DNA from: a virus
Direction: 5' to 3' (one strand)
Length of the DNA: 37,366 bases
IMG/VR virus record: IMGVR_UViG_3300044636_000846
Location: 1 to 37,366 of that record
The notes beneath the pieces are model-generated. The model ran no database searches and was not told the origin of the DNA. It worked only from the letters and a program-made list of their open reading frames with translations. A program made the position numbers and the translations under genes. Positions 1,098 through 36,795 of the stretch are shown here, piece by piece (the stretch's first letter is position 1; every line of letters starts with the position of its first letter).

Positions 1098-1114
1098 CGG
1101 GAAAACTCAGCCAG
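1098..1114 (+). promoter_or_regulatory. Start-associated motif, copy 1 (before portal)
   Basis: CGGGAAAACT at 1098-1107, ending 25 bases before the portal GTG. The second half is diverged (CAGCCAG instead of CTGCGGCAG). This is one of 16 plus-strand copies in the window. The 15 or so bases upstream of the core are not conserved between copies, so recognition seems to begin at the CGGG. Confidence 0.8.
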
Positions 1115-1132
1115 CAGGCATAGAAGGCGAAG

Positions 1133-2653
1133 GTGCGGCAGCAGATCAGCCATCCGACCGATAAGGGCGATCTGCCGTCTTTCCGTCATCCCCGGCTGGC
1201 GGAGTGCATGGCTGATCTTGACCTCGTGGCGGACTGCTGGGATCTGCTGCGGGGTGATGCCAAGCCGCGGCACCTTCCAAAGGAAGGCGGCGAGCCGAAG
1301 GACGCCTATCAGGCCCGCCTCAAGCGCAGCAGCTACCCGTCGTTCTTCCGCGATGGCGTCGGCGCTTTCGCGGGGGTGCTCAGCCGCTACCAGCTTCGAG
1401 GGGTGCAGAAAGGGCTTCTGGACGCCTCCGCCGACATTGACGGCGAGGGCAACAGCCTCAAGGCCTGGGGCCTCGGCGCCGATGCCCTGGTGCTCCGCGA
1501 TGGCGGTTGCCTGCTGATGGCCGACATGCCGCCGGGGGTGCCCGAGAGCAGGGCCGCCGAGCTGGCCCAGGGCCGCCGGCCGGTGTTCAGCGTGGCCGAG
1601 CGCCGCAACGTCCTCAACTGGAAGACAGCAAAGGTGGGCCGCAAGCGTGTGCCGATCGCTGTCACGGTTCTGGAGTGGCACGAGGTTGAGGACGGCGATT
1701 ACGGCTTGAAGCTGGAGCCCCGCTATCGCGTGATGCGGGGAGGTGAATGGCGCCTGCTCAAGATCAAGGGCGACGGCGGCAAGGGGGCCGCCGGCAACTA
1801 CGAGGTGGAGGTGGCCACCGATGAGCAGGGCCGCCCGCAGAAGGGCACCTTCACCGGCGCCAACGACCAGCCGCTGCAGTACCCGCCGGTGGTCTGGTAT
1901 GGCGCCACCCGCGATAGCTTCGGGGAAGGCGGGCTGCCGCTGCTGTCGCTGGCAAACCTCACCCTGGACTGGTTCCGCGAGTACAGCGACCTGAAGGAGC
2001 TCCTGCACCGCTGCGCCCTGCCGGTCACGGTGCTCAAGGACGCCGGCCGGGCACCGGGGCAACCGCTGACGCTGGGGCCTAACTCCTTGGTGGAGATCAA
2101 GGATCCCAACGGCTCGCTTTCGTTCGCCGAACCCTCCGGCGGCAGCCTCGACAAGCATCTGCAACATCTGCAGGAGATCGAGAAGCTGATTGATCGCTCC
2201 ACCCTGTCGTTCCTGTTCAGCGGCAGCAGCAACCGCACCGCCACGCAGGCCGAACTGGAGGGGGCCCAACTGCAGGCCACCATCACGGCGATGGCAGAGA
2301 GCAAGTCCAGCGCCTGGGAGTCCCTGTTTCAGCTCTGGGGCCAGTTCACCGGCGAGATGCCCCAGGCCGGCGCCGGGCTCGATCTACTGCCAGGCGTCAC
2401 CGATAAGCCCGTGGATGACGCCCTGCTCACCCTCGCCGGCACCCTTTATGACAAGGGCCTCCTCATGCGCGAGACGGTCACGCACCTGGCGCAAAAGCGC
2501 GGCATGCTCCGCCCCGGTGCTGATGGCAAGAAGGAGGCCGCCGAACTGGCCGCCGAGGATGCCCGCCAGCAAGCCCTCAACAACCCGCCGGTGCCGGGCC
2601 CCAATGACCTCGCAGGCGATGGCGTGGACGCCCAAGGGTTGCCGCTGAACTGA
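1133..2653 (+). CDS. Portal protein, DUF4055-like
   Basis: Forms the ring at the unique capsid vertex through which DNA is packaged and to which the tail attaches. The protein is 506 aa, typical of DUF4055 portal-like proteins. Consistent features are the N-terminal stretch of Tyr/Arg-rich helices (YPSFFRDGVGAFAGVLSR), a central segment around YPPVVWYG followed by LANLTLDWFREYSDLKELLH, and a long C-terminal helical part containing RTATQAELE. A GTG start at 1133 is preferred: it lies 25 bases after the start-associated motif and gives the expected N-terminus. Its stop lies directly against the motif for the next gene. The following Mu F-type gene supports portal identity. The terminase expected nearby must lie outside the window. 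Confidence 0.85.
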   Translation: MRQQISHPTDKGDLPSFRHPRLAECMADLDLVADCWDLLRGDAKPRHLPKEGGEPKDAYQARLKRSSYPSFFRDGVGAFAGVLSRYQLRGVQKGLLDASADIDGEGNSLKAWGLGADALVLRDGGCLLMADMPPGVPESRAAELAQGRRPVFSVAERRNVLNWKTAKVGRKRVPIAVTVLEWHEVEDGDYGLKLEPRYRVMRGGEWRLLKIKGDGGKGAAGNYEVEVATDEQGRPQKGTFTGANDQPLQYPPVVWYGATRDSFGEGGLPLLSLANLTLDWFREYSDLKELLHRCALPVTVLKDAGRAPGQPLTLGPNSLVEIKDPNGSLSFAEPSGGSLDKHLQHLQEIEKLIDRSTLSFLFSGSSNRTATQAELEGAQLQATITAMAESKSSAWESLFQLWGQFTGEMPQAGAGLDLLPGVTDKPVDDALLTLAGTLYDKGLLMRETVTHLAQKRGMLRPGADGKKEAAELAAEDARQQALNNPPVPGPNDLAGDGVDAQGLPLN

Positions 2654-2670
2654 CGGGAAAACTGCGGCAG
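2654..2670 (+). promoter_or_regulatory. Start-associated motif, copy 2 (before basic protein A)
   Basis: Full consensus: CGGGAAAACTGCGGCAG, directly after the portal stop codon, with its core ending 21 bases before the ATG. Here CGGCAG at 2665-2670 and CTGCCG at 2674-2679 could also pair as an RNA hairpin with an AGA loop. Confidence 0.85.
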
Positions 2671-2684
2671 AGACTGCCGTAGCC

Positions 2685-4043
2685 ATGCCCCGAGGAACCC
2701 GCCGAACGTCCTATGTGCGGGACAACCGCGGACGTTTCGCGAGCACGCCAGGCGGTGGCGCCCCCAAGCGACCGCCGGCCAAGCGGGCCAGCCGCGGCAC
2801 CAATCGCCTGACGCGGGACAACTCGGGGCGCATCACCAGCGTGGGCGGCAACGGCGCCACAGCCCGCGGGGGACGGCTGCGCACCGGGGCGGGGAACCTC
2901 AGGGCCAGGCAGACCGATCGCCTCAAGGGGGCGCCTCAGGGGGTGCTGAGCAGGGGAGGGAAAGCGCGGGGGAAGGTGGCCATGAAGCCGGTGGGGTGGA
3001 TGCAGTCACCAGAGGCCAGGAAGGACCGCGCCGATCCCATGGTGGCGGGGCACCGCAAGGACCAGGCAAAGCGGCTACGAGCCCTCCCCAAGGCGGCGCA
3101 GAGGGCGATACGGCTTGAGCGAATGAACTACGGGGGCACCGGGGTTAATCGCATGAGCGCTATGCGAGACATTGCAGAAGGTCGGGTTATTTTGATGGGC
3201 AATGTAGGCAAGCGAAAGAACAAGCGATCAGCCGGCGAGGTTCAAGCGATTGCTCAACAAATGAACCGATCAGCCACCCGCCTGAAGGCCGGCATGGCGA
3301 CGGGCAGCAGGGGGCGGATGAAGTACAACCCCAGGGCCGTGGAGGCAAGCGGAAAGGGCACCGCTGCCAGAAAGATCCGCGGGGCTCGCGTTGGTGGGGT
3401 GGCGCGGAAGGGCAAGGCAGCGCCAGCAAAGCCCGCCGGCAAACAGAGAAAGCCGCTAACAAAAGAAAGAATTAGCGCGGCTAAGGGCAAGATCACTGCC
3501 AAATTAACTGCCGTTTTGGATGAAATCAGGAAAGTTGAAAACGCCAAGAATCGCGATAACACCCCAGCCTCAGGCGGCTTTAGCCCCCGCTACCTTAAAC
3601 TGATCGCAAGAGGGCAAAAGGCTGATAAGCAACTGGAATCACTAAAAAGAGCCTCAAAAAGGCTTAAGCAAATTGAACTAAGCTACGATCCCGCAAAGTA
3701 TGGCTATGGTCGCGGCACAGATCAGCGCAAGTCTCTTGCGACTGAGATCCGCAACGCTCGCAAGCAGCTCACGACACTGCAACGCGAAGAAGCTACAGCA
3801 AAAAAAGTGTATGAAGCTGATCCTGTTGTTAGATTCGGCCTATGGGGAGAGATTGGCCAAAACAGAAGGCAATCGCGTAAGGCAAAAGAAAGAAACTCTA
3901 ATGCAGCGATGAACAGGGTTGATAGGTATATTGGCGCAGGGATTGCAGTAAGGCAGCAGCAAAACGCAATCAAGCAGCTAAGAGATAAAGCAAAGCGGCA
4001 AACACAGGAGACAAACAAGCGCCAGAAGCCCCGCAAGCCCTAA
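2685..4043 (+). CDS. Basic modular protein A (RDN-GRF family, helical C-terminus)
   Basis: Function unknown. This 452-aa, Arg/Lys/Ala/Gly-rich protein is one of four paralogues in the window. Its first 85 residues hold the shared module: SYVRDNRGRFAST, then NRLTRDNSGRI, then GATARGGRLRT and a RARQT segment. From about residue 250 it becomes a long charged alpha-helical or coiled-coil domain rich in Lys, Gln and Glu, ending in KPRKP. DNA composition changes with the domains: row 2821-2880 holds 47 G+C of 60, row 3481-3540 only 24. It sits between portal and Mu F head protein, so a role inside or on the head is plausible (inference). The ATG lies 21 bases after a start-associated motif. It lacks the GTIAKPKGLKPGAI-type linker of the other three. 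Confidence 0.75.
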   Translation: MPRGTRRTSYVRDNRGRFASTPGGGAPKRPPAKRASRGTNRLTRDNSGRITSVGGNGATARGGRLRTGAGNLRARQTDRLKGAPQGVLSRGGKARGKVAMKPVGWMQSPEARKDRADPMVAGHRKDQAKRLRALPKAAQRAIRLERMNYGGTGVNRMSAMRDIAEGRVILMGNVGKRKNKRSAGEVQAIAQQMNRSATRLKAGMATGSRGRMKYNPRAVEASGKGTAARKIRGARVGGVARKGKAAPAKPAGKQRKPLTKERISAAKGKITAKLTAVLDEIRKVENAKNRDNTPASGGFSPRYLKLIARGQKADKQLESLKRASKRLKQIELSYDPAKYGYGRGTDQRKSLATEIRNARKQLTTLQREEATAKKVYEADPVVRFGLWGEIGQNRRQSRKAKERNSNAAMNRVDRYIGAGIAVRQQQNAIKQLRDKAKRQTQETNKRQKPRKP

Positions 4044-4055
4044 CCCATGGCCACC
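4035..4055 (+). repeat. 21-base identical junction, copy 1
   Basis: The end of basic gene A, its TAA and the start of the next gene are identical over 21 bases to 10907-10927, the end of basic gene C and the start of its neighbour. The downstream genes are otherwise unrelated. Confidence 0.8.
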
Positions 4056-5114
4056 ATCGGCGACCAACAGCTCCAACTGGCCGACGACTACGCCGCCGCG
4101 TTGGACACCCTGGCCGATCGCTCGGTCAGCAACACGCAGGCGGCCCTGCGCCGGTCCCTGGCCCGCACCCTGCGGGATCTGCGTCGGTTCTACGGGCAGT
4201 TCGTGGACCCCGAGCTTCCCGACCAGCAGAGCGCCGATGGTGTGACGCGCCGGCCGGGCTCCTACTCGATCGCCGATGGCTCCGCCAAGTTCCGGCGCCT
4301 CCTGGAACTGGCCCAGGCCTTCGCGTCGGATCGGGAGCTCCAATGGCTCCAGAACCGCTACCGCGAGGACTTCGCCGAGGCGGTGGCCCTCGGCGGCGAC
4401 CTGGGCCAACAGCTCGCGCAGACCGCCAACCCTGACGCCACGGCACAGAGCACGTTCGTGGGCGCCAGCAGGGCCGCCGTGGAGGCCGCCGCCAGCACCG
4501 CATCGGCCTACATCCGGGGCGAGGTGGAGAGCTTCCGCGACAACATCGCCCGGATCGTCACCGATGGCATCGGCCGCGGGAAGGGGCCCCGCGTGCTGGA
4601 GGGGGAGATCAGGACCGCCCTCCAGGGGGCCCGCGATCCGCAGGGGCTGAACAACCGGCTGGGCCTGGAGCAGCGGGCCGAGCTGATCGCCCGCAGCGAA
4701 CTCGCCAACGCCTACGTGGGGGCCCAGAAGGCCGCCGCCGCCCGCAACGGGTTTAGCTACGCCCGGTGGATCGCCACCAAGGATGAGCGGACCTGTCCGG
4801 TGTGTGCCTCGCGCCATGGCCGGATCTACCGACTGGACGAGATCGTGGCGCCGGGGCATCCTCGCTGCCGGTGCAGCCTCTCCCCCGTGGCCACCGAAGC
4901 CGTGGAGGAGCCCGATCCCACCCTGCGGGCCGCCCTGCTGCGCGAGGCCTACTGGGAGCGGGCCCGCGAGGACGCCGCCCGAGAGTTTGCCGCAGGCAAG
5001 GGATGGCCGTTTGCCCGTGCCTCTCAGGTGTTGGAGGAGGCCGTGCGCAAGCCCTCCCCCAGCGAGCGACGGCAGTATCCCGACATTGAGCGGGCGCCGG
5101 TGCCGGTGGGGTAG
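4047..5114 (+). CDS. Mu F / SPP1 gp7-type head morphogenesis protein
   Basis: Minor head protein that associates with the portal and aids capsid assembly or DNA delivery. This 355-aa protein has the C-terminal Mu F signature: TKDERTCPVC at 244-253, then HG at 257-258 and HPRCRC at 271-276. The Cys and His residues (C250, C253, H271, C274, C276) probably bind a metal. The N-terminal 200 residues are predicted helical with no recognised domain. The start follows the stop of gene A by three bases and has no start-associated motif, so it is probably translated from the same message. Portal followed closely by a Mu F protein is a standard phage arrangement. About 80 residues follow the signature, with no toxin domain that I can recognise. 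Confidence 0.88.
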   Translation: MATIGDQQLQLADDYAAALDTLADRSVSNTQAALRRSLARTLRDLRRFYGQFVDPELPDQQSADGVTRRPGSYSIADGSAKFRRLLELAQAFASDRELQWLQNRYREDFAEAVALGGDLGQQLAQTANPDATAQSTFVGASRAAVEAAASTASAYIRGEVESFRDNIARIVTDGIGRGKGPRVLEGEIRTALQGARDPQGLNNRLGLEQRAELIARSELANAYVGAQKAAAARNGFSYARWIATKDERTCPVCASRHGRIYRLDEIVAPGHPRCRCSLSPVATEAVEEPDPTLRAALLREAYWERAREDAAREFAAGKGWPFARASQVLEEAVRKPSPSERRQYPDIERAPVPVG

Positions 5115-5136
5115 GGGCGTCTCGCCCGTCCCGTTA

Positions 5137-5148
5137 CTGGGATCCCAG
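5137..5148. repeat. 12-base perfect palindrome
   Basis: CTGGGATCCCAG between the Mu F gene and the metallophosphoesterase, three bases before a start-associated motif. It could be an operator or simply a BamHI-containing palindrome; nothing else identifies it. Confidence 0.4.
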
Positions 5149-5151
5149 CCA

Positions 5152-5168
5152 CGGGAAAACTAGGGCAA
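5152..5168 (+). promoter_or_regulatory. Start-associated motif, copy 3 (before metallophosphoesterase)
   Basis: CGGGAAAACT at 5152-5161 followed by AGGGCAA, a weak match in the palindromic half. Spacing to the ATG is 31 bases, the longest of the regular spacings. Confidence 0.75.
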
Positions 5169-5192
5169 CCAGCCTGAATCGCTGCCAAAAGC

Positions 5193-6341
5193 ATGGCTGA
5201 ACGCACCTACCAATGCCGCCGGCTCCGCAACTGCCGGGCCTGGGTGGGCGAAAGCGCCATTGAGTGGGTAGAGCAGTCCAACGGGGCCACGCGCCCCTAC
5301 TGCCAGCCGGGCATGTGCCCTAACAACAAGCGCAACGACACCTCAGAGGAGCTGTTGGCCCTGCAGCTCGATGCCCGCAGGCTCAGGGCTGAGGTGCGCG
5401 ATGCCAAGGCCTCGGCAGAAAGGGCTCTGGCCAAACTGGAGACGGTGCAGGATGCGCTGACCACAGCCCTGGAGATCAGGGACATTTTTGATCAGGGAAC
5501 CATCGAGCTGCCGGAAGATCCAGACAAGGAAGAGGCGGCGCCAATCTTGATGATTAGCGACATTCACTGCGGCATGGTGGTGAAGCCGCAAATTGTGAAC
5601 GAACTGAACGAGTTCAACCCTGATATTTTCGACGACCGGCTTGATGCGGTGTTCCGCAATGCCCTCAAGATCATCAACGGCCAACGCAACACCATGGCCA
5701 TCCGCGAAGGGGTCGTATGGTTCGGCGGCGACATGATCGAGGGAGAACTGCACAATGACGCCGTTCAGAATCAGACGCTGACACCAACTCAGCAGATCAT
5801 CCGGTGCCAGCTTGCCCTGGTGCGGGGGCTTGACTTCCTGTTGGCTCACTCTGATCTGGAGCGGATCATGGTGCCCTGCAACGACGGCAACCATGACAGG
5901 CTGACGAAGAAGATGCAGTCGAATCACAGTGAGAACTCGTTTGCAAACCTGATGTATCACAACTTGCGGCGCCACTACAGGGACGAGCCGCGCTTGGTGT
6001 GGCGGATCGCCGATTCGGATTGCCTGTACATGGATGTCTACAACAAGCGACTACGCTTCTTCCATGGTGATTCAGTGAAATACAACGGCGGTGCAGCGGG
6101 GCCGCTGTGGAATGTAGACAAGCACTGTAAAAACTTGGATCAAAGCATCCCAGCCGACAACACATTCCACGGCCACTTCCATACCCTGTCATTTGGAAGG
6201 GCTACCAGCAACGGCAGCCTTCCGGGGTGCGCCCCGTATGGCCACCGCCAGGGCTACAGGCCCGAGCGTCCGCAGCAGGGGATGAGGTTCCTGCACAGCC
6301 GCTTGGGTTTCGTTGGTTCATTCCCTGTCTTCACGGACTGA
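5193..6341 (+). CDS. Calcineurin-like metallophosphoesterase
   Basis: Predicted two-metal phosphoesterase (phosphatase or nuclease). The motifs appear in family order: DIH at 123-125, GGD at 178-180, GNHD at 232-235, HGD at 291-293 and GHFH at 327-330. The 120-residue N-terminal extension carries four Cys (8, 14, 37, 42) that could form a zinc knuckle, then a coiled coil at about 52-95. A nucleic-acid substrate is likely for a phage enzyme of this shape but is not shown by the sequence. It lies among head genes, between the Mu F protein and basic protein B, which is unusual: such enzymes normally sit with replication genes. It has its own start-associated motif, so it may be expressed with the structural set. 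Confidence 0.85.
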   Translation: MAERTYQCRRLRNCRAWVGESAIEWVEQSNGATRPYCQPGMCPNNKRNDTSEELLALQLDARRLRAEVRDAKASAERALAKLETVQDALTTALEIRDIFDQGTIELPEDPDKEEAAPILMISDIHCGMVVKPQIVNELNEFNPDIFDDRLDAVFRNALKIINGQRNTMAIREGVVWFGGDMIEGELHNDAVQNQTLTPTQQIIRCQLALVRGLDFLLAHSDLERIMVPCNDGNHDRLTKKMQSNHSENSFANLMYHNLRRHYRDEPRLVWRIADSDCLYMDVYNKRLRFFHGDSVKYNGGAAGPLWNVDKHCKNLDQSIPADNTFHGHFHTLSFGRATSNGSLPGCAPYGHRQGYRPERPQQGMRFLHSRLGFVGSFPVFTD

Positions 6342-6352
6342 CCAGGGCAAGC

Positions 6353-6369
6353 CGGGAAAACTCCTGCAG
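6353..6369 (+). promoter_or_regulatory. Start-associated motif, copy 4 (before basic protein B)
   Basis: CGGGAAAACT at 6353-6362, then CCTGCAG. The core ends 21 bases before a GTG, the same spacing as for basic genes A and C, which supports the GTG as the true start. Confidence 0.85.
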
Positions 6370-6383
6370 TAGCAGCGTTTCCA

Positions 6384-7856
6384 GTGGCGGGCGGTAGCAG
6401 GGGCAGGCGGACCTACGCCAGGGACAACCGGGGGCGCTTCGCCAGCACCGGCACCGCTCGAACCCGCCCCGCCCCCAAGAAGGCGGCCACCAGTGGTCCG
6501 AACCGCCTCACCCGCGACAACTCCGGCCGGATCGTTGGGGTCGGCAAGAACGGGGCGACCGCACGAGGAGGGAGGCTCCGCACTGGGGCAGGGAACCAGC
6601 GGGCAACGCAGACGGCAAGGCTGAAGCGGGCCCCGATGGCGGGAGTCGTCAGCAGGAGCGGCAAGGCGCGGGCAGTGGCCACCCCACGGGTTCCCTCACG
6701 CATCGCCAACCGCTCAGCGGCGGACCAGGCGCAGCGGGACAAGCTGGCCAAGCAGTGGAAGACCGTTGAGAAGCCCGCTCGCAGGGCTGACGCCACTGCT
6801 AGGGCAAACGTTGGCGTGGCTGCGACCGTTCCCAGTTATCCCCGGCTGACCAGGGCCAGCAAGATCCGCGGGGATGCCCGCTTTGTTCGGGAGAACGTCT
6901 ACGACCAAGTGGAGCGGCTGATGCGCAGCCCCAGCCGCGGCAAGAACAAGCTCACCCCCCAGCAGCGGGCGCAGATCGTTGCCGACGCCGTGGGTAGCGC
7001 TCGCAGCCTGAGGGCTCGGGCGGCAATGACCACGCCGCGGCGCTCAACCCTCAAGGCCCGCGCCGCTCGCCCTGGCGGCACCATCGCCAAACCGAAGGGC
7101 CTCAAGCCGGGGGCGATCAAGCCCAAGACCACCCCCAAGCCCAAGGCCCCCCGCAGCCCCGCCACAAGCCGCCTCAGGCCTGGGGAGTTGATGAACGCGG
7201 TGGCGCGGCCGGTGAACACGATGGCGAAGCCGAGGAAAGGGCGGAATCCGTATCAGGCTGGCATTGCAAACATGGAGTACCAAGTATCAGCCACGAATGA
7301 TGACAAAAAGGCTCGACTCGCCAACGCGCAAGCGACTAAGGCAATGTTTGAAGGCCAAGGACTATCTGTGAAATACAACAGCGGTCGCGGCAGCAGCACG
7401 GTCGCAAGTTACAACCCTGCCACAAAGCAAATGACCATTAACAGGTCGCACACTAGCTGGGTTAATCCGGCTGCGGCTGCAATCAAAGAGCGCAGGAGAG
7501 GGGCAAAATCAAGCTCTGCGCCTATGCACACCTTTTTCCATGAAATGGGGCACGCAAGGGACAAGAATCTGTTGTCTCGATCTACGCCGTTTGGTCAGTT
7601 CTGGGTGTTGGCCACGCAGAAAGGGCCAAGCCAAGAAGCCAGGGCGGCAAGGGGCAATCAGATGGCTCGGCTCGCCCGCCGCGTCAGCCGCTACGCCACC
7701 ACCAACCCCTCCGAGTTCATTGCCGAAACCTACGCCGGCCTCAAGACCGGCCGCCGCTACGACTTCCAGGTGATGCGTGCCTACCGCGAAGCCATGGGCC
7801 TCTCGCCGAACCCTGCCCCCCGCCGCCGCAGCCGCCTCAGAAGACCCAAGCCGTGA
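6384..7856 (+). CDS. Basic modular protein B with zincin-like metallopeptidase domain
   Basis: A 490-aa paralogue of A, C and D. The N-terminal module has YARDNRGRFAST, NRLTRDNSGRI and GATARGGRLRT. The shared linker (RPGGTIAKPKGLKPGAI) is at 229-245. The C-terminal domain (about 290-470) carries HEMGH at 386-390, an HExxH zinc-peptidase motif, and a downstream NPSEFIAE at 441-448 whose Glu would be the third metal ligand. This matches the general pattern of phage-encoded zincins. It ends in RRPKP, as does protein C. DNA at about 7255-7560, which encodes the peptidase domain, is visibly AT-richer than the flanking modules. A possible role is cleavage of head proteins, or of host proteins after injection; both are inference. 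GTG start chosen from motif spacing and paralogue alignment. Confidence 0.75.
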   Translation: MAGGSRGRRTYARDNRGRFASTGTARTRPAPKKAATSGPNRLTRDNSGRIVGVGKNGATARGGRLRTGAGNQRATQTARLKRAPMAGVVSRSGKARAVATPRVPSRIANRSAADQAQRDKLAKQWKTVEKPARRADATARANVGVAATVPSYPRLTRASKIRGDARFVRENVYDQVERLMRSPSRGKNKLTPQQRAQIVADAVGSARSLRARAAMTTPRRSTLKARAARPGGTIAKPKGLKPGAIKPKTTPKPKAPRSPATSRLRPGELMNAVARPVNTMAKPRKGRNPYQAGIANMEYQVSATNDDKKARLANAQATKAMFEGQGLSVKYNSGRGSSTVASYNPATKQMTINRSHTSWVNPAAAAIKERRRGAKSSSAPMHTFFHEMGHARDKNLLSRSTPFGQFWVLATQKGPSQEARAARGNQMARLARRVSRYATTNPSEFIAETYAGLKTGRRYDFQVMRAYREAMGLSPNPAPRRRSRLRRPKP

Positions 7857-7873
7857 CGGGAAAAGGACTGGCG
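7857..7873 (+). promoter_or_regulatory. Start-associated motif, variant copy 5
   Basis: CGGGAAAA at 7857-7864 followed by GGACTGGCG, a two-base variation of the core, directly after the stop of gene B. It lies about 24 bases before an ATG at 7891 and is the main evidence for that 33-codon gene. Confidence 0.6.
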
Positions 7874-7890
7874 TTTACGGGATTGGCATC

Positions 7891-7992
7891 ATGCGGAAAA
7901 ATCCCCGCATCCGAGCCGTAGACACCGGCATGAGCCAGCTCTCCCTGATGGGCAAGCCCAAGAAGCTCAAGCGCTACAAGCCCGTCAAGTAA
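7891..7992 (+). CDS. 33-aa basic small protein
   Basis: Small gene reading from MRKNPRIRAVD to a Lys-rich end, KKLKRYKPVK. It is supported by the motif 24 bases upstream and by a TAATG overlap with the next possible start at 7992. About a third of its residues are Lys or Arg. No family recognised. A longer reading from 7777 would run back into gene B and through the motif, so the short form is preferred. It resembles the basic proteins around it only in composition. Confidence 0.6.
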   Translation: MRKNPRIRAVDTGMSQLSLMGKPKKLKRYKPVK

Positions 7993-8045
7993 TGCAGCGC
8001 TCCGGCTCAAACACCGGAAATCCCGTTGTTTCACCACCACCACCC

Positions 8046-8297
8046 ATGCCCACCCGCAGCCCCACCCTCCGCCTCCTGCAGGCCCTGTCCGTCGCCGCCC
8101 TCCGCCGCGATGCTGCCGCCGCTCAGCAGGGCCTGCGGATGCTGGCCACCGTCACCGATGACCACGAGGGAGAGCAGATCCTGCGGCTGCTGAGCAACAG
8201 CCTCGACCCACAGGGCCGGTTCTGGTTCGGCAGCCTCCACGGGCCCCGCGTGGGCCTGGAGGATCCGGCTGCTGCGGGAAAACTCACGGCAGCCTGA
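8046..8297 (+). CDS. Hypothetical protein, 83 aa
   Basis: Not recognised. Mostly helical, alanine-rich, with a C-terminal WFGSLHGPR segment. The ATG at 8046 is preferred because it has the ACCC-ATG context seen before several genes here. An in-frame ATG at 7992 overlaps the previous stop and would add 18 residues of low complexity. A degenerate relative of the start-associated motif (CCGGAAATCC) lies about 30 bases before 8046. The next gene's motif lies inside its last codons. Position between head and neck genes suggests a virion or assembly role, without direct evidence. Confidence 0.6.
   Translation: MPTRSPTLRLLQALSVAALRRDAAAAQQGLRMLATVTDDHEGEQILRLLSNSLDPQGRFWFGSLHGPRVGLEDPAAAGKLTAA
8275..8291 (+). 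promoter_or_regulatory. Start-associated motif, copy 6
   Basis: CGGGAAAACT at 8275-8284 then CACGGCAG, embedded in the last codons of the upstream gene and 27 bases before the ATG at 8312. Its presence inside coding sequence shows the motif is selected independently of gaps. Confidence 0.8.
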
Positions 8298-8311
8298 GCG
8301 CGTCCTGATCC

Positions 8312-8827
8312 ATGGCCACCCTGCCGACCCTTGACCCGCTCTGGCGCCCCACTGCCACCAGCACCCGCAACGATCGCGACCTGATCCGCACCTACATCGG
8401 CTGGCCAGCCACCGATGGCAGCCTGACGGAGCTGATCCAGCAGATGAACACGGTCGCCGCGCTGGCGCCCTCCGCCGTGACGCAGATTCAGGGGTGGGTG
8501 GATGAGATCGCGAACCTGGAGGAAACGCAGGCCGACGCGATCGATGCAGGCACCGCCCACCTGGGGAACGCTGAGGAATACGACGGGCCGATCCCCGGCA
8601 CCTCCCCCACGCGGGCCCAGCAGCTCAGCCAGGCCGGCAAACTCTCGTGGGATACCTCCCTGCTCAAGGCCCGGTATCGCTTCGGCAGCGGCGCCAGGGC
8701 CACGGCGCAGGGGCAACGGGATGAGCGGATCGAGCTACTGACCAACCGCATCGCCAATGCCCTCAACTGCCGGCGCATGGCACCGCAGGGTGCGGCCGGT
8801 GGCGGCGGGATGCTGCTGCGGAGCTGA
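8312..8827 (+). CDS. Hypothetical protein, possible head-tail connector (171 aa)
   Basis: No family recognised with confidence. It begins MATLPTLDPLWRPTA and is largely helical; a middle segment (about 40-80) is predicted to form two long helices, and the end is Gly/Met-rich (GGGGMLLRS). Its size, helical make-up and position after the portal/Mu F block and before the neck genes fit a head-tail connector or adaptor. That is positional inference only. It has its own start-associated motif. Confidence 0.6.
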   Translation: MATLPTLDPLWRPTATSTRNDRDLIRTYIGWPATDGSLTELIQQMNTVAALAPSAVTQIQGWVDEIANLEETQADAIDAGTAHLGNAEEYDGPIPGTSPTRAQQLSQAGKLSWDTSLLKARYRFGSGARATAQGQRDERIELLTNRIANALNCRRMAPQGAAGGGGMLLRS

Positions 8828-8838
8828 GTAGGGGGACG

Positions 8839-8855
8839 CGGGAAAACTGCGGCAG
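8839..8855 (+). promoter_or_regulatory. Start-associated motif, copy 7
   Basis: Full consensus CGGGAAAACTGCGGCAG, 11 bases after the upstream stop and with its core ending 23 bases before the ATG of a 44-codon gene. Confidence 0.85.
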
Positions 8856-8871
8856 TCACCCAGAGAAGCCA

Positions 8872-9006
8872 ATGCCAGCAGGTGGAATGCCCTACGGGGG
8901 AAGCATGTTCGGCGGGATGCCCGCCAAGCCCGCCAAGGCCGGAAAGAAGGCCGCCAAACCCAAGGGCAAGGCCAAGGGCGGCAAGAAGGCCAAGCCGATG
9001 AAGTGA
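8872..9006 (+). CDS. 44-aa Lys/Ala/Gly/Met-rich basic protein
   Basis: A tiny gene with motif copies before and after it. The first 17 residues are Gly/Met-rich (MPAGGMPYGGSMFGGM) and the rest is a histone-H1-like Lys/Ala/Pro/Gly tail with 16 lysines. Such a tail would bind nucleic acid non-specifically. It stands directly before basic protein C. It could be a DNA-condensing or virion-internal peptide; that is inference. Codon choice is as GC-rich as its neighbours, and a full-consensus motif at 23 bases supports its reality. Confidence 0.65.
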   Translation: MPAGGMPYGGSMFGGMPAKPAKAGKKAAKPKGKAKGGKKAKPMK

Positions 9007-9018
9007 GGCCTAGGGCCA

Positions 9019-9035
9019 CGGGAAAACTGCAGCAG
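9019..9035 (+). promoter_or_regulatory. Start-associated motif, copy 8 (before basic protein C)
   Basis: CGGGAAAACTGCAGCAG: the palindromic half is CTGC-A-GCAG. The core ends 21 bases before the ATG, as for genes A and B. Confidence 0.85.
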
Positions 9036-9049
9036 TAGACCCCGATCCC

Positions 9050-10915
9050 ATGGCCCGCGGCGGCAGCAGAGGCAGGCGCTCCAACTACGTGCGCGACAAC
9101 AGCGGGCGCTTCGCCTCGACTCCCGGCGGCGGCCCTCCGAAGCGCAGCACGCCCGCCTCTCGCCGCGCAGCCAGGCCCACGGTCACCGGCGGCACCCTCG
9201 GGGCCCGCGGGAGTCTTCGCCGCAGCCGCGCCAAGCTGGCTGGCAAGAACCCGGCCGATCGCAGCCTGCAGGGCACGCTGAGCCTGCGGGCCCAGAAGGG
9301 GGCCGTCACCAGGGGCGCCAACCGCCTCGGCAAGGCGCGGGTGGCCTCCACGGTGCGGATGGCGGCGCGGGCGGGGGTGATTCGAGGTGGACGGAAGGTT
9401 GCGGCAGGGCCGGTGGCGGCGCCCAAGGACTACAAGCGGGGGAGGTCGGCGGCGCTGGGCTACAAGCCGAAGGCCGATGGGACGCGGCCCGCAACCAGTG
9501 GCGCTCGGGTGCTTAGCGCAAGGCTCAACGCCTCTCAGCGGAAAAAGGCGGCCGAGGCAAGGCAGCGTTACGGGGTCCGCAGCACGGCGCAACGTGCCCG
9601 CACAAGGGCCGGCAGCTACGACCCAGCCAAGCAGGGCGGTGGCCGCGTCACGTTCAGGAGCAGGCTTGCGGCCAAAAAAGCCTATTTAATGCGAGCTGTG
9701 GCTACAAAAAACATTGCAAATAGGAAAGCATCAGACTTTACCAGTGGACTTGAATATCAAGGATCATTGAAAGCCAAGTCTGCAACGGTTTCTCAAGGCA
9801 ACCTATTGACCGGCGACACTGAGCGGATCAAAAGGGTAAGGGTTCGATCGGCTTCCCCTAAGTCGGCAATCATGGGAGTCCTGAAAAGGGAAGCGGCTAA
9901 AAGCGGCAGGCCGATGGCGCCAAGGAAGCCTGTAACCCCCAGGGCGCCAAGATATGCCTACAAAAAGATCAACAGGGCAAACGCCAACCTTGATAGAGCA
10001 AGCAAGGCAATAAATAAACTTGAGAAACGTCTTGAGAAAAGCAATACGCCCAAGAGTCAAAAGGCTTTAGCGAAAGCCCGCAAAAGCGCTGCAGTTGCCT
10101 TTAAGGCAAGAAGGCTGCTCAACAGGGAGCCAAGCCGATTTTACGGAAGGGGTTCTGGTCGCCGAGTCAAATCCGGCGCCCCTCGCCCCTCCGGCACGAT
10201 CGCCAAGCCCCGTGGCCTGAAGCCCGGCGCCATCGCCGCCAGGAAAGCCAAGGCAGCCGCCTCCGGCGCACGGGCCGCCAGGGCAACCACCAACTACAAC
10301 CGGGCCCAGAAGGCGGCCCTAGAGGCGCAGCAGCGCCTCAACCGGCGGCGCTCGCCTAAGAATCAAGCCGCCGCCGACAGGGCCCAGAAGACCCTCAGGA
10401 CCGCCGCCCGCGCCTATCGGATCCTCGTGGGTCTCGGGGGCGAGAAGATGGCCACCCCCCGCAAGCCCAGCCCCAAGGGCGCAGGGCCCCGGATGAAGGC
10501 CGCACGGCCGGCGGGGACGGTGGCGAAGCCGAAGGGGGTGAAGGTGGAGGCGCTGGCCAAGGAAGCTGGCAAGCCTGGCAAGCGTCTAGGCCGCGTTGCC
10601 GGACCACTGCCTGTGGATGGCGTAAGAAGGCGTGGTGAAACCACAAGGAATCGATCAGATGTATCTGGCGCAGTTGCGGACATAAAGGCGCTAGGTCTAC
10701 CCATTTACAAGCCCAGAACGGCTAGATCTCCAGGCCAGGAAGGCATCCGAGTCCGCAAGGGGCCAAGGGCTGGGACCGTGGGGATCATTGCTCACACGCT
10801 GGAAGCCTTTGACAGGGCTCTTGCCCTGGTTAAAAAGCAAGGCGGAGAAATCCTGTATCAGAACAAACAAGGGCAAGCCTTCACCTTCAGGAATCCCCGC
10901 AGGCCGAAGCCCTAA
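9050..10915 (+). CDS. Basic modular protein C (RDN-GRF family)
   Basis: Function unknown; 621 aa and extremely basic. It opens with NYVRDNSGRFAST like its paralogues, but the second half of the N-terminal module (RDNSGRI/GATARGGR) is diverged or lost. The linker motif occurs twice, at about 379-395 (RPSGTIAKPRGLKPGAI) and 486-502 (RPAGTVAKPKGVKVEAL), bracketing a helical Lys/Ala-rich block. The last 80 residues form a separate small alpha/beta-looking domain (GTVGIIAHTLEAFDRALALV, then GQAFTF) and the end is RRPKP. DNA at about 9667-10150 and 10620-10890 is AT-richer than the modules around it. It is followed after three bases by the next gene across a 21-base junction shared with gene A. Confidence 0.72.
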   Translation: MARGGSRGRRSNYVRDNSGRFASTPGGGPPKRSTPASRRAARPTVTGGTLGARGSLRRSRAKLAGKNPADRSLQGTLSLRAQKGAVTRGANRLGKARVASTVRMAARAGVIRGGRKVAAGPVAAPKDYKRGRSAALGYKPKADGTRPATSGARVLSARLNASQRKKAAEARQRYGVRSTAQRARTRAGSYDPAKQGGGRVTFRSRLAAKKAYLMRAVATKNIANRKASDFTSGLEYQGSLKAKSATVSQGNLLTGDTERIKRVRVRSASPKSAIMGVLKREAAKSGRPMAPRKPVTPRAPRYAYKKINRANANLDRASKAINKLEKRLEKSNTPKSQKALAKARKSAAVAFKARRLLNREPSRFYGRGSGRRVKSGAPRPSGTIAKPRGLKPGAIAARKAKAAASGARAARATTNYNRAQKAALEAQQRLNRRRSPKNQAAADRAQKTLRTAARAYRILVGLGGEKMATPRKPSPKGAGPRMKAARPAGTVAKPKGVKVEALAKEAGKPGKRLGRVAGPLPVDGVRRRGETTRNRSDVSGAVADIKALGLPIYKPRTARSPGQEGIRVRKGPRAGTVGIIAHTLEAFDRALALVKKQGGEILYQNKQGQAFTFRNPRRPKP

Positions 10916-10927
10916 CCCATGGCCACC
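10907..10927 (+). repeat. 21-base identical junction, copy 2
   Basis: Identical to 4035-4055. It spans the stop of basic gene C and the first codons of the next gene. Confidence 0.8.
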
Positions 10928-11389
10928 CCCTTCGCCGACTTCGCAAACCTCCGCCTCCTCTGGCGGCGCCCCACCGCAGCGGCCACCAGCCTGCGGGAAG
11001 GGCTGCAGCGGGCCACCGATTTGGTGGTGATCGAGGCCTTTGCCGAAGTGCAGGGCCCCGGCGGTGAACAACCCTCCGGCGGGCGCTCCATCGGCTCGGG
11101 CAGCATCGAGGGCAACATCACCCGCTGGGCCGTGGTGCCCTCCGGTGCCAACTGGCTGGACGCGGGAACCGCCTGGAGTTGGACCGACACCGGCCTGCGG
11201 CCCACGGGGTTCCCCCGCGGCGAGAAGCTGGAGGCCTTCATGGGCGACCTGGCCAGCCTGCCGACCACCACCGAAGCGGAGCGCGGCTGGGTCACGATCG
11301 CCACCCTCTCAGGCGTCGGCGGCATTGATGCCCTGATCCGCGTTGAAGCCGGCGATGAGTTCACCGGCACCTTCGCGGCCGGCCGATGA
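10919..11389 (+). CDS. Hypothetical neck/connector protein, 156 aa
   Basis: Not recognised by motif. It begins MATPFADFANLRLLWRRP and the rest looks beta-rich with many Gly and Trp. It is followed with a four-base overlap (ATGA) by an HK97 gp10-like gene, so it lies in the neck block where head-tail connector or tail-completion proteins are normal. No start-associated motif: translation probably depends on the message from basic gene C, whose stop is three bases upstream. Confidence 0.6.
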   Translation: MATPFADFANLRLLWRRPTAAATSLREGLQRATDLVVIEAFAEVQGPGGEQPSGGRSIGSGSIEGNITRWAVVPSGANWLDAGTAWSWTDTGLRPTGFPRGEKLEAFMGDLASLPTTTEAERGWVTIATLSGVGGIDALIRVEAGDEFTGTFAAGR

Positions 11390-11886
11390 AGCTTGCCACC
11401 AGGGCCACCGTGCGGGTCAACCCGGCCACCCTCAGCCGTGCGCAGCGGGCCTCCGAGGCAGCGGCGCGGATCGTGTTCCCAGAGCTCAACAGCGCCTTTC
11501 AAGATGCCCTGGGCTCTAAGGTGTGGCCGTGGCCGCGGGTGACGATGCGCGGGGGAACCTTCCGCCGTGATGGCAGCCGCACCAAGGGTCGGCCGGTGGG
11601 CTCGCCTCGCAACATCGTGGACTTGGGCACCCTGCGGGCCAGCAACAGCTTCCAGATCACCGGCAACCTCTGCACCTTCCGCTGGGCCGTGGGCTATGCC
11701 ACGGCGGTTCACTACGGCGCCAACATCCATCCTTGGGGTGACAAGACCCGCCCCCTCGTCAACCTGCCCGCCAGGCCCTGGACTGATGCGGTGCTCGGAA
11801 CCATCAGAATCCCCGGCCTGGAGCCCTATGACTACCGCGAGCAATTCCAGGCATCATTCATCCAGGCCTGGCGCAAACTGCAGTGA
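11386..11886 (+). CDS. Neck / tail-completion protein, HK97 gp10-like
   Basis: Likely helps join head and tail. This 166-aa protein has the features of the HK97 gp10-like group: an N-terminal helix followed by a beta-rich core with YATAVHYGA (about 103-111) and the late PARPWTDAV (about 127-135). Order after a connector and before the tail chaperone fits this role, although in many phages the tail terminator follows directly; here the terminator candidate is 7 kb away. Overlaps both neighbours by four bases, so translation is coupled. Confidence 0.65.
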   Translation: MKLATRATVRVNPATLSRAQRASEAAARIVFPELNSAFQDALGSKVWPWPRVTMRGGTFRRDGSRTKGRPVGSPRNIVDLGTLRASNSFQITGNLCTFRWAVGYATAVHYGANIHPWGDKTRPLVNLPARPWTDAVLGTIRIPGLEPYDYREQFQASFIQAWRKLQ

Positions 11887-12659
11887 GCTTTGATCTTCTC
11901 CCCTGGGAAACAGCGCCCCAGGCCCCTGAGCAGCCGACCGCCACGATCGAGTGGAACGGCGGCGAGCTGGTGCTCCCCCGACTGGGCTACCTCACGGTGG
12001 ACGAGCTGAACAGCATCCGCGAGATCGATCCGCAGAACGCGCTCTATCGCCTGATCACCGCCGCCGCCGTGGCCCTCAGCCAGGCCGCAACCGATCGCAC
12101 CGCCCACTGGTGCTATGGCCTGCTCACCCGGCTTCTGGCGCAGGACATTGGCGCCAACGCCGGCCGGATGAGCACCGAGGAGGAGTCGCTACAGGTTGTG
12201 CATGCCGAGATCATCGGCCCGTTCTTGGAGCAGGCCAGGGCGATCCGCAACCGTGTCACGATCCGGTCTGTGACCGTGATCCTGCAGCGGATCAAGCCAG
12301 CGTGGAGCGATGAGCAGACCCGCCGCCTGCCGGGCGCCCTGCAGGAGATCCTGCACGCCTTTGAGCAGGAGGAGGAGCGGGCTGGCGCTGGCCTGAAGAC
12401 CGACCCCGCGGCCGAAATGCGGGCGCTGGAGGAGGCGCTGGGAAAGTTGCAGGAGGTCAGCGACTCGATTGCGACCGCCCCGACTGGCCCCGCGCCTACT
12501 GGGAATGCCGCAGACTCTGGCCCGGCGCCGCCGAGTTCAGCCGCGAGCGCTTCGGCAAGCTCCCCGGCGGCTATGTCCTCCAGGCGCTACAGGAGGGTTA
12601 CGCAGCCGAGCGAGAGAGGCTTCACCGCGAAGAACAGAGCACCGCGCAGATCGCCCTGA
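11883..12659 (+). CDS. Tail assembly chaperone, unshifted form (lambda gpG-like)
   Basis: Chaperone of tape-measure and tube assembly. The GTG overlaps the previous stop (GTGA). The 258-aa zero-frame product has a helical N-terminal domain to about residue 180. After the slippery site at 12440-12446 (residues 187-188) the zero frame becomes a low-complexity Ala/Ser/Pro stretch and then Arg-rich, as expected when only a fraction of ribosomes stay in frame. The chaperone precedes the tail tube rather than following it, which is an unusual order. Confidence 0.75.
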   Translation: MSFDLLPWETAPQAPEQPTATIEWNGGELVLPRLGYLTVDELNSIREIDPQNALYRLITAAAVALSQAATDRTAHWCYGLLTRLLAQDIGANAGRMSTEEESLQVVHAEIIGPFLEQARAIRNRVTIRSVTVILQRIKPAWSDEQTRRLPGALQEILHAFEQEEERAGAGLKTDPAAEMRALEEALGKLQEVSDSIATAPTGPAPTGNAADSGPAPPSSAASASASSPAAMSSRRYRRVTQPSERGFTAKNRAPRRSP

Positions 12660-13120
12660 TCCTCGCCGAGGCCAACCGCAACCGCGAAGCTCGGCCCGAG
12701 CCCTACAGCCTGCGGGAGTTCACCTTCTGGTCTGATGTGGCAGAAGCCCCCAGGCCCCCGAGCGAGGCCGGCGCCGCCCTGCTGGAACTGCTGGAGCGGA
12801 ACCTCCTGCCGGGGTTCGTGTTGGATGGCCCGTGGCTGGCCGATCTGGAGGCCCAGGCCCGAGGCGTCACCCCACCGCCGCGGCTGTGCTGGGCGGCCGA
12901 GGATGCCATCCTGCTGGCCCCCTACCGGGTGGATGCGAGCCACTGGGGCGGGTTCCTGGTGGCTCAGGCCAGCGCCGTGGGCCGGGTGCGGGAGTTCGCG
13001 TCGGAGGCCGGCGAGGTCGTGGCGCTGCGGGTGCCGTCTGATGCAGTGCAGGGGCGGGCGTTTGCCGCTGCGCAGGCCGGCGCGGTGCTGGTGATGGCGA
13101 GCCGGGAAAACTCCGGGTAG
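11883..13120 (+). CDS. Tail assembly chaperone, -1 frameshift product (lambda gpGT-like)
   Basis: Read as 188 zero-frame codons, then -1 from base 12446 to the TAG at 13118-13120, about 412 aa. The -1 frame is open from 12365 and its translation is plainly protein-like: DWPRAYWECRRLWPG, then ALILAEANRNREARPEPYSL and REFTFW. The ANR...RPEPYSLREF segment matches the usual T-domain pattern of tail chaperones. An extra domain of about 125 residues (from AEAPRPP) follows, longer than most chaperones. It could be made separately from a GTG at 12737, but no motif or ribosome site supports this. The last codons contain the motif for the tail-tube gene. Confidence 0.78.
12440..12446 (+). other. Programmed -1 ribosomal frameshift site GGGAAAG
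   Basis: The heptamer is in the required register (G GGA AAG in the zero frame) and is the same sequence used in the lambda G-T genes. A purine-rich GGAGGAGG lies at 12428-12435, four bases upstream, and could act as a stimulator. The -1 frame continues for 224 codons. Confidence 0.85.
13103..13119 (+). promoter_or_regulatory. Start-associated motif, copy 9 (before tail tube)
   Basis: CGGGAAAACT at 13103-13112, then CCGGGTA, inside the end of the frameshifted chaperone frame. The core ends 25 bases before the ATG. Confidence 0.8.
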
Positions 13121-14004: not shown

Positions 14005-14008
14005 TCGG

Positions 14009-28089: not shown

Positions 28090-28106
28090 CGGGAAAACTG
28101 CAGCAG
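28090..28106 (+). promoter_or_regulatory. Start-associated motif, copy 12
   Basis: CGGGAAAACTGCAGCAG, seven bases after the tip-gene stop and with the core ending 22 bases before the ATG. A GATCA-AG-TGATC inverted repeat follows at 28106-28117. Confidence 0.85.
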
Positions 28107-30271: not shown

Positions 30272-30288
30272 CGGGAAAACTGCGGGGC
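30272..30288 (+). promoter_or_regulatory. Start-associated motif, copy 13 (before scaffold)
   Basis: CGGGAAAACTGCGGGGC. The spacing to the scaffold ATG is 41 bases, outside the range of the other copies, and no better start is in frame nearer. Confidence 0.75.
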
Positions 30289-31145: not shown

Positions 31146-31162
31146 CGGGAAAACTGCGGGTG
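31146..31162 (+). promoter_or_regulatory. Start-associated motif, copy 14 (capsid leader)
   Basis: CGGGAAAACTGCGGGTG, seven bases after the scaffold stop. The major capsid start is 168 bases away, but an ATG at 31175 is only 19 bases downstream, as for other copies. Confidence 0.75.
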
Positions 31163-31168
31163 ATCCAA

Positions 31169-31260
31169 GGCGCGATGCCTGCGGATCACTCGCCACCGGC
31201 GCGATGCCAGGGCACTGACCACCACCAGCACGGACGACCACCAACGCACGGCGCGATGCC
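31169..31260 (+). repeat. Three direct repeats GGCGCGATGCC in the capsid leader
   Basis: Identical 11-base copies at 31169-31179, 31198-31208 and 31250-31260, with starts 29 and 52 bases apart. They lie in the 185-base leader before the capsid gene, the longest noncoding stretch in the window. GGC/GCC ends make each a short imperfect palindrome. Confidence 0.85.
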
Positions 31261-31303
31261 AAGCCGAGGCCCTGCCCCTGTCTGGATCTGCAACTTCCTT
31301 TAA
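31175..31303 (+). CDS. Possible 42-aa leader peptide before the capsid gene
   Basis: An ATG 19 bases after the motif opens a frame through the capsid leader to TAA at 31301-31303, 20 bases before the capsid GTG. Product begins MPADHSPPARC and is His/Pro/Gly-rich, not typical of a folded protein. It may be a leader peptide or a remnant. Evidence is the motif spacing alone. Confidence 0.3.
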   Translation: MPADHSPPARCQGTDHHQHGRPPTHGAMPSRGPAPVWICNFL

Positions 31304-31323
31304 CCCTTCCGCATTTTCGACCC

Positions 31324-32873: not shown

Positions 32874-33140
32874 ATGGCCCACCTTGCGCTTTACAGCTTC
32901 TCGCCCGGCATGACGCCGGAGCAGCAGCAGGCCCTGATCAGCGGCGAGCGGCAACCCGAGGAGGTCGCCGAGCACCTGGCTGCCCAACCCGAGGAGGAGG
33001 CGGCTCCGGCTGACGCCCCAGCAGAGGCAGCACCGGCCAAACCGCGGCGCAGGGCCCGCACCGATCGCGGCGCCTTTCGTGGCGACGACCCGGCCACGCC
33101 CGAGGTGAACGAGGCCTATGAGGCTGACCGGGAAAACTGA
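32874..33140 (+). CDS. Small acidic Ala/Glu-rich protein, 88 aa
   Basis: Starts MAHLALYSFSPGMTPEQQQ. The middle is disordered (Glu/Ala/Pro), followed by a basic KPRRRARTDRG patch and the end FRGDDPATPEVNEAYEAD. A DDPxTPxVNEA ending is common in small phage proteins near capsid or head-completion genes; function there is not established. The stop codon TGA is formed by bases of the start-associated motif for the next gene. Confidence 0.65.
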   Translation: MAHLALYSFSPGMTPEQQQALISGERQPEEVAEHLAAQPEEEAAPADAPAEAAPAKPRRRARTDRGAFRGDDPATPEVNEAYEADREN

Positions 33141-33145
33141 CGGCA
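33129..33145 (+). promoter_or_regulatory. Start-associated motif, copy 15
   Basis: CGGGAAAACTGACGGCAG, overlapping the last codons and stop of the upstream gene; the core ends 20 bases before the ATG at 33159. Confidence 0.85.
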
Positions 33146-35784: not shown

Positions 35785-36631
35785 TGGATTACGCCTTCCA
35801 CCACCCTGGATCACCCCTGCGGCCGGGAAGCCGGATCGGGAGGTGCGGCAAGTGATTATTGTTCCTAGGCGGCGGGTGGCGGCAACAGGTTGGACGCCCG
35901 CGCAGATCACCACAGCGCTGTGGCTGGACGCCAGTGACGCCGCCACCGTCGAGAGGGTTAGCGGTGCGGTTAGCCAATGGAATGACAAGAGTGGAAATAA
36001 TAGAAATGTTACTCAAAGCACATCTGGGAAGCGCCCTATCTACGTCAGCGCTGGCATTAACTCCCTAAATACCATCCGATTTGACGGGATCGATGATGAG
36101 CTAATAAATACATCAATAGGGCTCCCTGTTGGATTATCCGCAAGATCGGCTTTTTGTGTTTACAAGCCAAATAGAACTAGCGGAACTCAGTCCAATGCGA
36201 TATTTGGGCAGGGCGCAGCTACCAATGGCCAGATGTTTGCTCTTCAGTTTCGCGCAACGGCATCAGGCGCCCAAGGTGATCCATATTTTGCTGGATTTGC
36301 GGCAGACTTGACTAACGGAACTGCTCCTACGGCAACAGTAAAACAGGCTGCAATAGTTTTCGGAAGCGGAAGCGGGACACTTTTCAGCAATGGGTCTCAG
36401 ATTGCCAGCGGGTCACTTTCGCTTGATACGACAAACAACCAAATACTGGTCGGCAATAGTCCAGCCAATGTTGAGTTTGCGCAAGCAGACATCTGCGAAA
36501 TCATCTACACAGCAAACGCAGCCAGCACAACTGCCCGCCAGCTCATTGAGGGCTACATGGCCTGGAAGTGGGGACTCCAAGCCAACCTCCCCGCAGGCCA
36601 CCCCTACAAATCCGCCGCCCCCACGGCCTAG
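35768..36631 (+). CDS. LamG-like (concanavalin-type) fibre or adhesin protein
   Basis: 287 aa from ATG 35768, which overlaps the previous gene by 17 bases; an ATG at 35726 would need a longer overlap. The fold reads as a LamG/jelly-roll domain: WLDASDAATVERVSGAVSQW, then WNDKSGNNRNVTQS, then IRFDGIDDEL. It ends in IEGYMAWKWGLQANLPAGHP, a closing segment common in phage and bacterial adhesins of this type. It probably binds surface polysaccharide during adsorption. The DNA is AT-richer than its neighbours. Confidence 0.72.
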   Translation: MALRNDGLRLPPPWITPAAGKPDREVRQVIIVPRRRVAATGWTPAQITTALWLDASDAATVERVSGAVSQWNDKSGNNRNVTQSTSGKRPIYVSAGINSLNTIRFDGIDDELINTSIGLPVGLSARSAFCVYKPNRTSGTQSNAIFGQGAATNGQMFALQFRATASGAQGDPYFAGFAADLTNGTAPTATVKQAAIVFGSGSGTLFSNGSQIASGSLSLDTTNNQILVGNSPANVEFAQADICEIIYTANAASTTARQLIEGYMAWKWGLQANLPAGHPYKSAAPTA

Positions 36632-36691
36632 CCGCCCCAGCAATTTCGTATCGGCACCCTCGCCAGACTGACCCCAACCCCCACGCCTGCC

Positions 36692-36766
36692 ATGCCGCCT
36701 GAGCACGATGTGACGCACCGCGATCTGTGGGTGAAGCTGGCTGCACTGGTGCCCTATCTGGCGTAG
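36692..36766 (+). CDS. Possible small protein of 24 aa
   Basis: ATG at 36692 to TAG at 36764-36766 reads MPPEHDVTHRDLWVKLAALV and four more residues. It resembles the beginning of small phage proteins with a THRDL start and a coiled coil (XhlA-like), cut short. The next start-associated motif begins 12 bases after its stop. A remnant or a real tiny gene are both possible. Confidence 0.35.
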   Translation: MPPEHDVTHRDLWVKLAALVPYLA

Positions 36767-36778
36767 AGCTTGCTGCTT

Positions 36779-36795
36779 CGGGAAAACTGAGGCAG
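36779..36795 (+). promoter_or_regulatory. Start-associated motif, copy 16
   Basis: CGGGAAAACTGAGGCAG. The core ends 23 bases before a TTG at 36812 but 47 bases before the first in-frame ATG, so the regular spacing favours TTG. Confidence 0.8.

Follow-up and report, generated by a model that had tools for sequence, protein, structure and literature searches.

The 37,366-base virus record IMGVR_UViG_3300044636_000846 of IMG/VR, analysed here at full length and called the window, carries siphovirus structural genes, including those for a portal, a Mu-F-like head protein, a tape measure, a scaffold and a tail protein, and the named phages closest to its portal were the cyanosiphoviruses S-CBS2, S-CRES1-3 and P-SS2 (34–37% identity). 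The major capsid gene (start 31324) was named from its position after the scaffold gene and from homology to the S-CBS2 major head protein region. A near-identity search of phage records returned no match. The element under study is a short motif, hereafter the box, which recurs along the plus strand of the window near gene starts, together with the sigma factor gene whose position is directly before its first copy.

A first-pass annotation of the window had listed 16 copies of the motif, all on the plus strand; each of its coordinates was right, and 15 copies are exact CGGGAAAACT cores, the remaining one being the variant CGGGAAAAGG at 7857. Scanning the window for CGGGAAAACT with one mismatch allowed gave 18 matches against 2.3 expected, a number reached by no shuffle. 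Because a more permissive box pattern near the starts of open reading frames (ORFs) yielded many chance matches (10 on the reverse strand of the window), the strict core alone was used for counts. Box 1 (1098–1114) stands before the portal gene (GTG at 1133), and boxes 2 (2654–2670), 4 (6353–6369), 7 (9019–9035) and 9 (16819–16835) precede genes for basic proteins that begin at 2685, 6384, 9050 and 16857 (ATG), the last of them directly past the minus-strand lysis cassette. Box 3 (5152–5168) lies before a metallophosphatase-like gene at 5193, box 5 (8275–8291) before a gene at 8312, box 6 (8839–8855) before a small gene at 8872–9006, box 8 (13103–13119) before the tail protein gene at 13138, box 10 (20349–20365) before the tape measure gene at 20384 and box 11 (28090–28106) before a gene at 28122. 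Toward the right end, box 12 (30272–30288) precedes the scaffold gene at 30323, box 13 (31146–31162) the major capsid gene, box 14 (33129–33145) a gene at 33159 and box 15 (36779–36795) a gene starting at 36812 (TTG) or 36836 (ATG). The variant (7857–7873), with a 33-amino-acid ORF starting at 7891, is the weakest copy and may be decayed; this box (GGAAAAGG) is followed by the 33-amino-acid ORF, which is basic, and by a gene shorter than in relatives, and 7857–7992 is possibly a decaying unit. Both minus-strand cassettes lack the box, as had been noted: one spans 14245–16748 and contains an endolysin gene of lysozyme-like type (identified by eye), and the other is a gene at 19361–20299.

Relatives were gathered by two viral-contig scans, one with the motif and one with the portal, which returned largely the same contig sets. 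Over 11 related records, the core ended a median of 25 nucleotides (nt) before the called start, and two outliers were constant, the scaffold gene at 41 nt and the capsid gene at 158–168 nt. The annotated distance of 19–31 nt in 15 of 16 copies held for most of them, and the 41 nt given for the scaffold copy was found again, but at 31146 the capsid start lies 168 nt after the core. The longer scaffold spacing (∼45–50 nt from the start of the box) is kept in S-CRES3, S-CBS2 and S-CRES1.

Across 87 non-redundant copies from the window and its relatives, in which the core CGGGAAAACT is invariant by search design, the conserved unit was a single box, GGGAAAACT(G), with a weaker right half, GCnGCAG (G 79%, C 56%, G 84%, C 61%, A 61%, G 66%). 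The two-part motif originally described is therefore borne out in its box core but not in its second part: the palindrome CTGCNGCAG is complete in only five motif copies (2662, 8847, 9027, 16827, and 28098), its remaining seven matches in the window lie outside motif copies, and we rejected it as a functional unit. The absence of conservation 5′ of the core, also noted earlier, was confirmed in the 87 copies, where scattered weak biases (the strongest 0.33 bit at −2) included nothing resembling a second element; neither these copies nor the cultured phages showed a clear information peak for a conserved −35 element ∼15–18 base pairs (bp) 5′ of the box. A scan of window positions 1–19000 for sigma-70-like promoters found none, which is below the chance mean.

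Copies at random positions and on both strands would have spoken against the motif. Instead, the 11 related records held 160 exact cores in the forward and one in the reverse orientation, confined to the late module. Contigs of 33–65 kilobases (kb) in the related set, among them phages of 55–65 kb, had 12–17 exact copies each and unrelated contigs one or two; contigs that the pattern scan returned with a single match are apparently chance finds. The longest box-free arc measured 25–28 kb in four of five long genomes (P 0.003–0.007 under random placement), and 18 kb in the fifth (P 0.07). In the related genome G003, the copy-free stretch holds leftward early genes and the terminase. The same genome carries a tyrosine-integrase-like gene (L145:1788–2789), a weak match present in only some relatives, and the lineage may include temperate members.

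The sigma factor gene was found in 71 viral loci. It lies between terL and the portal gene in nine of nine relatives that cover that spot and upstream of the portal gene in 17 of 17 further loci tested, and the box precedes the portal gene in nearly every locus having both. Its product belongs to the sigma-70 family, with Pfam Sigma70_r2 above cut-off in several relatives; neither the Pfam region 4 models, at the C-terminus, nor the gp55 family gave a match, and only region 2 is recognised by Pfam in the sigmas of S-CRES3, S-CBS2 and P-SS2. Profile searches of solved structures aligned residues 27–217 with the chain of S. aureus entry 8x6g that the tool labels only “sigma factor,” and which we take to be sigma-B (E 1e-10), and residues 38–196 with sigma-F of entry 1l0o (E 5e-8), both alignments stopping before region 4.2. 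A repeat protein with a short helix-turn-helix-like match outscored the sigmas in this search and was disregarded. A structure model of moderate confidence (mean predicted local distance difference test score, pLDDT, of 70), which replaced a poor first model built from six sequences, shows regions 2 and 3 as helices, followed by three more; domain 4 is shortened and, read by eye, has no complete region 4.2 helix-turn-helix. The fold matches listed for the model were sigma factors throughout, and the best profile and fold matches were sigma-B, sigma-F, sigma-S and sigma-A. No relative was found when host genomes were scanned with the sigma profile. On these comparisons the protein is related to the sigma-B/sigma-F type (group 3), without a recognisable region 4.2, which fits promoters without a conserved −35 element.

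In the window, the probable end of this gene occupies positions 1–66 (plus strand, cut by the contig start; frame 1 reads AEAVVQLSLRLPSPNTSPSEP and then stops), recognised by its likeness to QQALALELP in relatives with no statistical match of its own. A DNA methyltransferase gene (63–1070) is inserted between it and the portal gene, which is not so in the relatives examined; what remains of the original sigma C-terminus, now out of frame, lies to the left of the portal gene (1071–1164, plus strand, reading ESGKTQPAGIEGEGAAADQPSDR) and contains box 1 intact. Relatives with sigma and portal genes have box 1 in the same place, often within the sigma C-terminal coding sequence, where it is read as the codons for SGKT. 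Given that the frame was lost and the box kept in the window, selection acts on the DNA.

Related boxes were also recovered from four cultured relatives by word enrichment in upstream regions, with the motif not given as input. They are of the same class and lie 28–35 nt before late genes: GGMATACTA in S-CRES3 (word GGCATACTA in 14 of 40 upstream regions vs. 1.2 expected), GGMATCCTA in S-CBS2 (GGAATCCTA in 15 of 43 vs. 1.3 expected) and GGAARGCTA in P-SS2 (GGAACCCTA and GGAAAGCTA in 9 of 35 vs. ∼0.4–0.5 expected), with a weaker signal in S-CRES1 that ranked below that phage’s own terminator words. Forward-to-reverse counts were 20:2, 28:2 and 21:3 in S-CRES3, S-CBS2 and P-SS2, respectively, and each of these three phages has an annotated sigma gene after terL. 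Among the viral contigs the box before the portal gene likewise differs by lineage (GGAAAACTG, GGAAAACTA, GGAAACCTG, GGAACCCTG, GGAAAACCA). In S-CRES3, 5 of 20 boxes begin at most 45 nt past the T-run of a terminator, where 0.18 would be expected (P 8e-7); S-CBS2 shows this bias less strongly (P 0.03), and in P-SS2 it does not reach significance (P 0.07). A gene directly past an intrinsic terminator needs a promoter there. This bears on the proposal that each gene is freed from a long late transcript by a nuclease that cuts at the boxes: repetition on one strand near gene starts, and a hairpin directly after the box in the capsid leader, would suit such a processing site, but past a terminator a new start is needed rather than a cut, no candidate enzyme is known and the adjacent sigma would be left unexplained, and we regard it as very improbable. 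Separately, at four sites in the cultured phages (S-CRES3 60675, L237; S-CBS2 32942 and 33353, L189, and 38745, L140) a terminator hairpin follows the box immediately, and three of the four lie just before a start codon, an arrangement that resembles built-in attenuation.

The capsid gene departs from close spacing. Its box lies 167–179 nt from the gene in 10 non-redundant relatives with capsid proteins of 42–99% identity, and the leader between them (31156–31323 in the window, plus strand) consists of a hairpin of 9–11 bp that starts inside the right half of the box, followed by three GCGCGATGC repeats (31170, 31199, and 31251) that are invariant across the 10; the P-SS2 capsid leader also carries GGCGTGATGCC. 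An Rfam search of the leader found no family. The leader ATG at 31175, 19 nt past the core of the 31146 copy, falls in the hairpin loop and begins no conserved peptide; a conserved small ORF there was rejected, frames differing between relatives (read by eye). Standing before a conserved structured leader and 168 nt upstream of the gene in the window, this box is not a start-codon element. We also weighed the idea that the motif is a start-associated RNA element helping ribosomes initiate on late genes that lack a Shine-Dalgarno sequence. Most copies do lie 19–32 nt before a start codon, genes translated by overlap have none, and several leaders have no obvious Shine-Dalgarno sequence; set against these are the capsid copy, 158–179 nt from the start in all relatives, the boxes after terminators in S-CRES3, a longest match to the 16S complement of 7 nt, the same as in shuffles (with E. 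coli 16S as stand-in), and the presence of the right type of sigma beside the first box, which together make a translation element unlikely. The likeness drawn earlier to the start-associated sequences of cluster K mycobacteriophages is at best superficial: these too are short one-strand repeats before start codons, but their sequence, spacing and neighbours differ, and the box has no fixed close spacing, as its capsid and scaffold copies demonstrate.

The C-terminal part of the phage sigma is variable except for QLxLF, conserved at Q in 25, L in 25, L in 22 and F in 24 of 27, in the forms QLDLF, QLGLF, QLALF, QLVLF, QADLF, and QPSLF; the S-CRES1 and S-CRES3 sigmas end in QGSLF. The deposited S-CBS2 sigma (gp077, L140 21833–22560) stops early; another frame of the record encodes the conserved end, QGSLF included. 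QL(S/D)LF is the bacterial β-clamp-binding pentapeptide. Group 2 sigmas of the same phages have no QLxLF at their ends. A bacterial-type clamp (PF00712) was absent from 14 records in a search that detected its control and did not extend to the gp45/PCNA type; lacking one of this type of their own, these phages would have host DnaN as the partner. The sigmas have a second conserved Q-x-x-L-x-L stretch (sigma alignment columns 255–260; QQALAL, QIDLSI, and QLSLRL in the window at 1–66), which resembles a clamp-binding hexapeptide and is possibly a second clamp contact. The methyltransferase at 63–1070 also ends in a clamp-like pentapeptide, QPDLF.

Taken together, these observations make it very probable that the motif is the −35-less late promoter of a phage sigma in a lineage of cyanobacterial siphoviruses. 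Such a promoter would be a single −10-like box, GG(G/A/C)A(N)(N)CT(A/G), or CGGGAAAACTG in this virus, recognised by the phage-encoded sigma, which would take over the host RNA polymerase and whose retained regions 2 and 3 would serve for binding the core polymerase and the −10 box. Transcription would probably start within the GCGGCAG part, ∼6–8 nt past the box, and late mRNAs would have leaders of ∼10–20 nt, except for the capsid gene with its structured leader of ∼155 nt. Among the three options offered in the first-pass annotation, a phage factor site is thus the one supported, since a phage sigma gene lies beside the first box and the two occur together in almost all loci examined; the translation and processing options are disfavoured, and a phage single-subunit RNA polymerase was not found. 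A compact, single, one-strand 17-bp element without a −35 would be expected of promoters for a T7-type single-subunit polymerase, but PF00940 was found neither in 13 contigs nor in S-CRES3, P-SS2 or S-CBS2, with a T7 control at E 1e-109, so that this explanation can practically be discarded. Nor do we favour repressor-binding stoperators as in mycobacteriophage L5, asymmetric sites within short gaps between genes that silence the prophage. Sites of one orientation near gene ends, a weak tyrosine-integrase match in three relatives and a conserved helix-turn-helix protein in the early module speak for them. Against them, the boxes are late-only, with none in the early module where repression is expected, S-CRES3 and S-CBS2 have the box and no integrase found (by a search that also missed the annotated integrase of P-SS2), and the box is similar to a −10 element and has diverged alongside the sigma. 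We consider this explanation highly unlikely.

Several points weigh against a late promoter coupled to this sigma. The sigma gene lies almost wholly outside the window, which contains its probable end only, and common descent confounds the parallel divergence of box and sigma. Spacing to the start codon (19–32 nt in most copies) is tighter than a promoter alone requires, and two genes of the window, at 12735 and 32329, lack an exact box although they have an intergenic gap. The closeness of GGCATACTA to Bacillus sigma-F/sigma-G −10 elements serves as a lead, not a test. As to the tail, the P-SS2 sigma lacks QLxLF, the motif is weak in L227 (ALGLL) and it is missing in L132 and L101.

We are less sure of a further step, suggested by the QLxLF ending of the sigma, in which the host sliding clamp would recruit or activate the sigma through its tail and late transcription would follow DNA replication, as with gp55 and gp45 in T4; that such clamp coupling is added to the late promoter has, in our estimate, close to but not quite an even chance. 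T4 late promoters carry a −10-only box. With the T4 late system (gp55/gp33/gp45) the phages described here share a sigma without a normal region 4, late genes preceded by a short −10-only box and a putative C-terminal clamp-type epitope behind a variable linker. They differ from it in that their sigma resembles sigma-B/F, retains regions 2 and 3 together with a shortened domain 4 and has no homology to gp55, that their GGAAAACTG-like box is unlike that of T4, that the tail carries the QLxLF motif of bacteria and so points to the host clamp, and that they are siphoviruses unrelated to T4. In gp55, similarity to sigma factors is confined to domain 2 and is followed by a variable linker and the C-terminal clamp epitope (PMC2988020). 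A review of the T4 system asks why nature has no fused late-transcription sigma (PMC2988020). We tentatively propose, rating it somewhat below evens, that a late sigma coupled to replication in a single protein arose in these cyanophages independently of T4. With regions 2 and 3 like those of sigma-B/F, without a −35 reader, and with a QLxLF tail docking on the host β clamp, perhaps helped by a second QxxLxL site, it would fire −35-less boxes on replicating phage DNA only; if true, it would come close to the fused sigma of that review. A literature search on sigma factors with clamp-binding motifs returned T4 work, with no other phage sigma recognised from titles.

Group 3 sigmas (Bacillus sigma-F, sigma-G, and sigma-B) are the nearest structure-sequence relatives of the phage sigma, and we take the box, GG(C/A)ATACTA or GGGAAAACT, to resemble sigma-F/G −10 elements; the phage system differs from theirs in having no conserved −35, no recognisable region 4.2 and a clamp-type tail. 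ORF003 of P-SS2, which is the same gene in the same place and shares 50% identity with 61% of the S-CRES3 sigma, was recognised as a group 3 sigma with its target left open (Sullivan et al., 2009, PMC2784084). That paper predicted sigma-70 promoters only, by BPROM, and a full-text search of it shows no mention of motifs (PMC2784084). No description of the box was found in the literature searched, a search to which the S-CBS/S-CRES genome papers were external. The box would supply a target for the group 3 sigma noticed in 2009 and a late regulon for a phage family of abundant cyanobacteria, and since this family includes cultured phages, the proposal is testable now. The conserved clamp-type tail suggests that T4-like coupling of replication and late transcription may have arisen a second time, through the host clamp. 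Pairs of box and sigma would, in addition, give compact orthogonal promoter/sigma pairs for cyanobacterial genetics.

Four long basic proteins encoded in the window, by genes 2685–4043, 6384–7856, 9050–10915 and 16857–18776, for which no family was found, have in common the N-terminal sequence RR(x)SYVRDNxGRFAST. Each of the four genes starts directly after a box, and relatives have one to four copies each.

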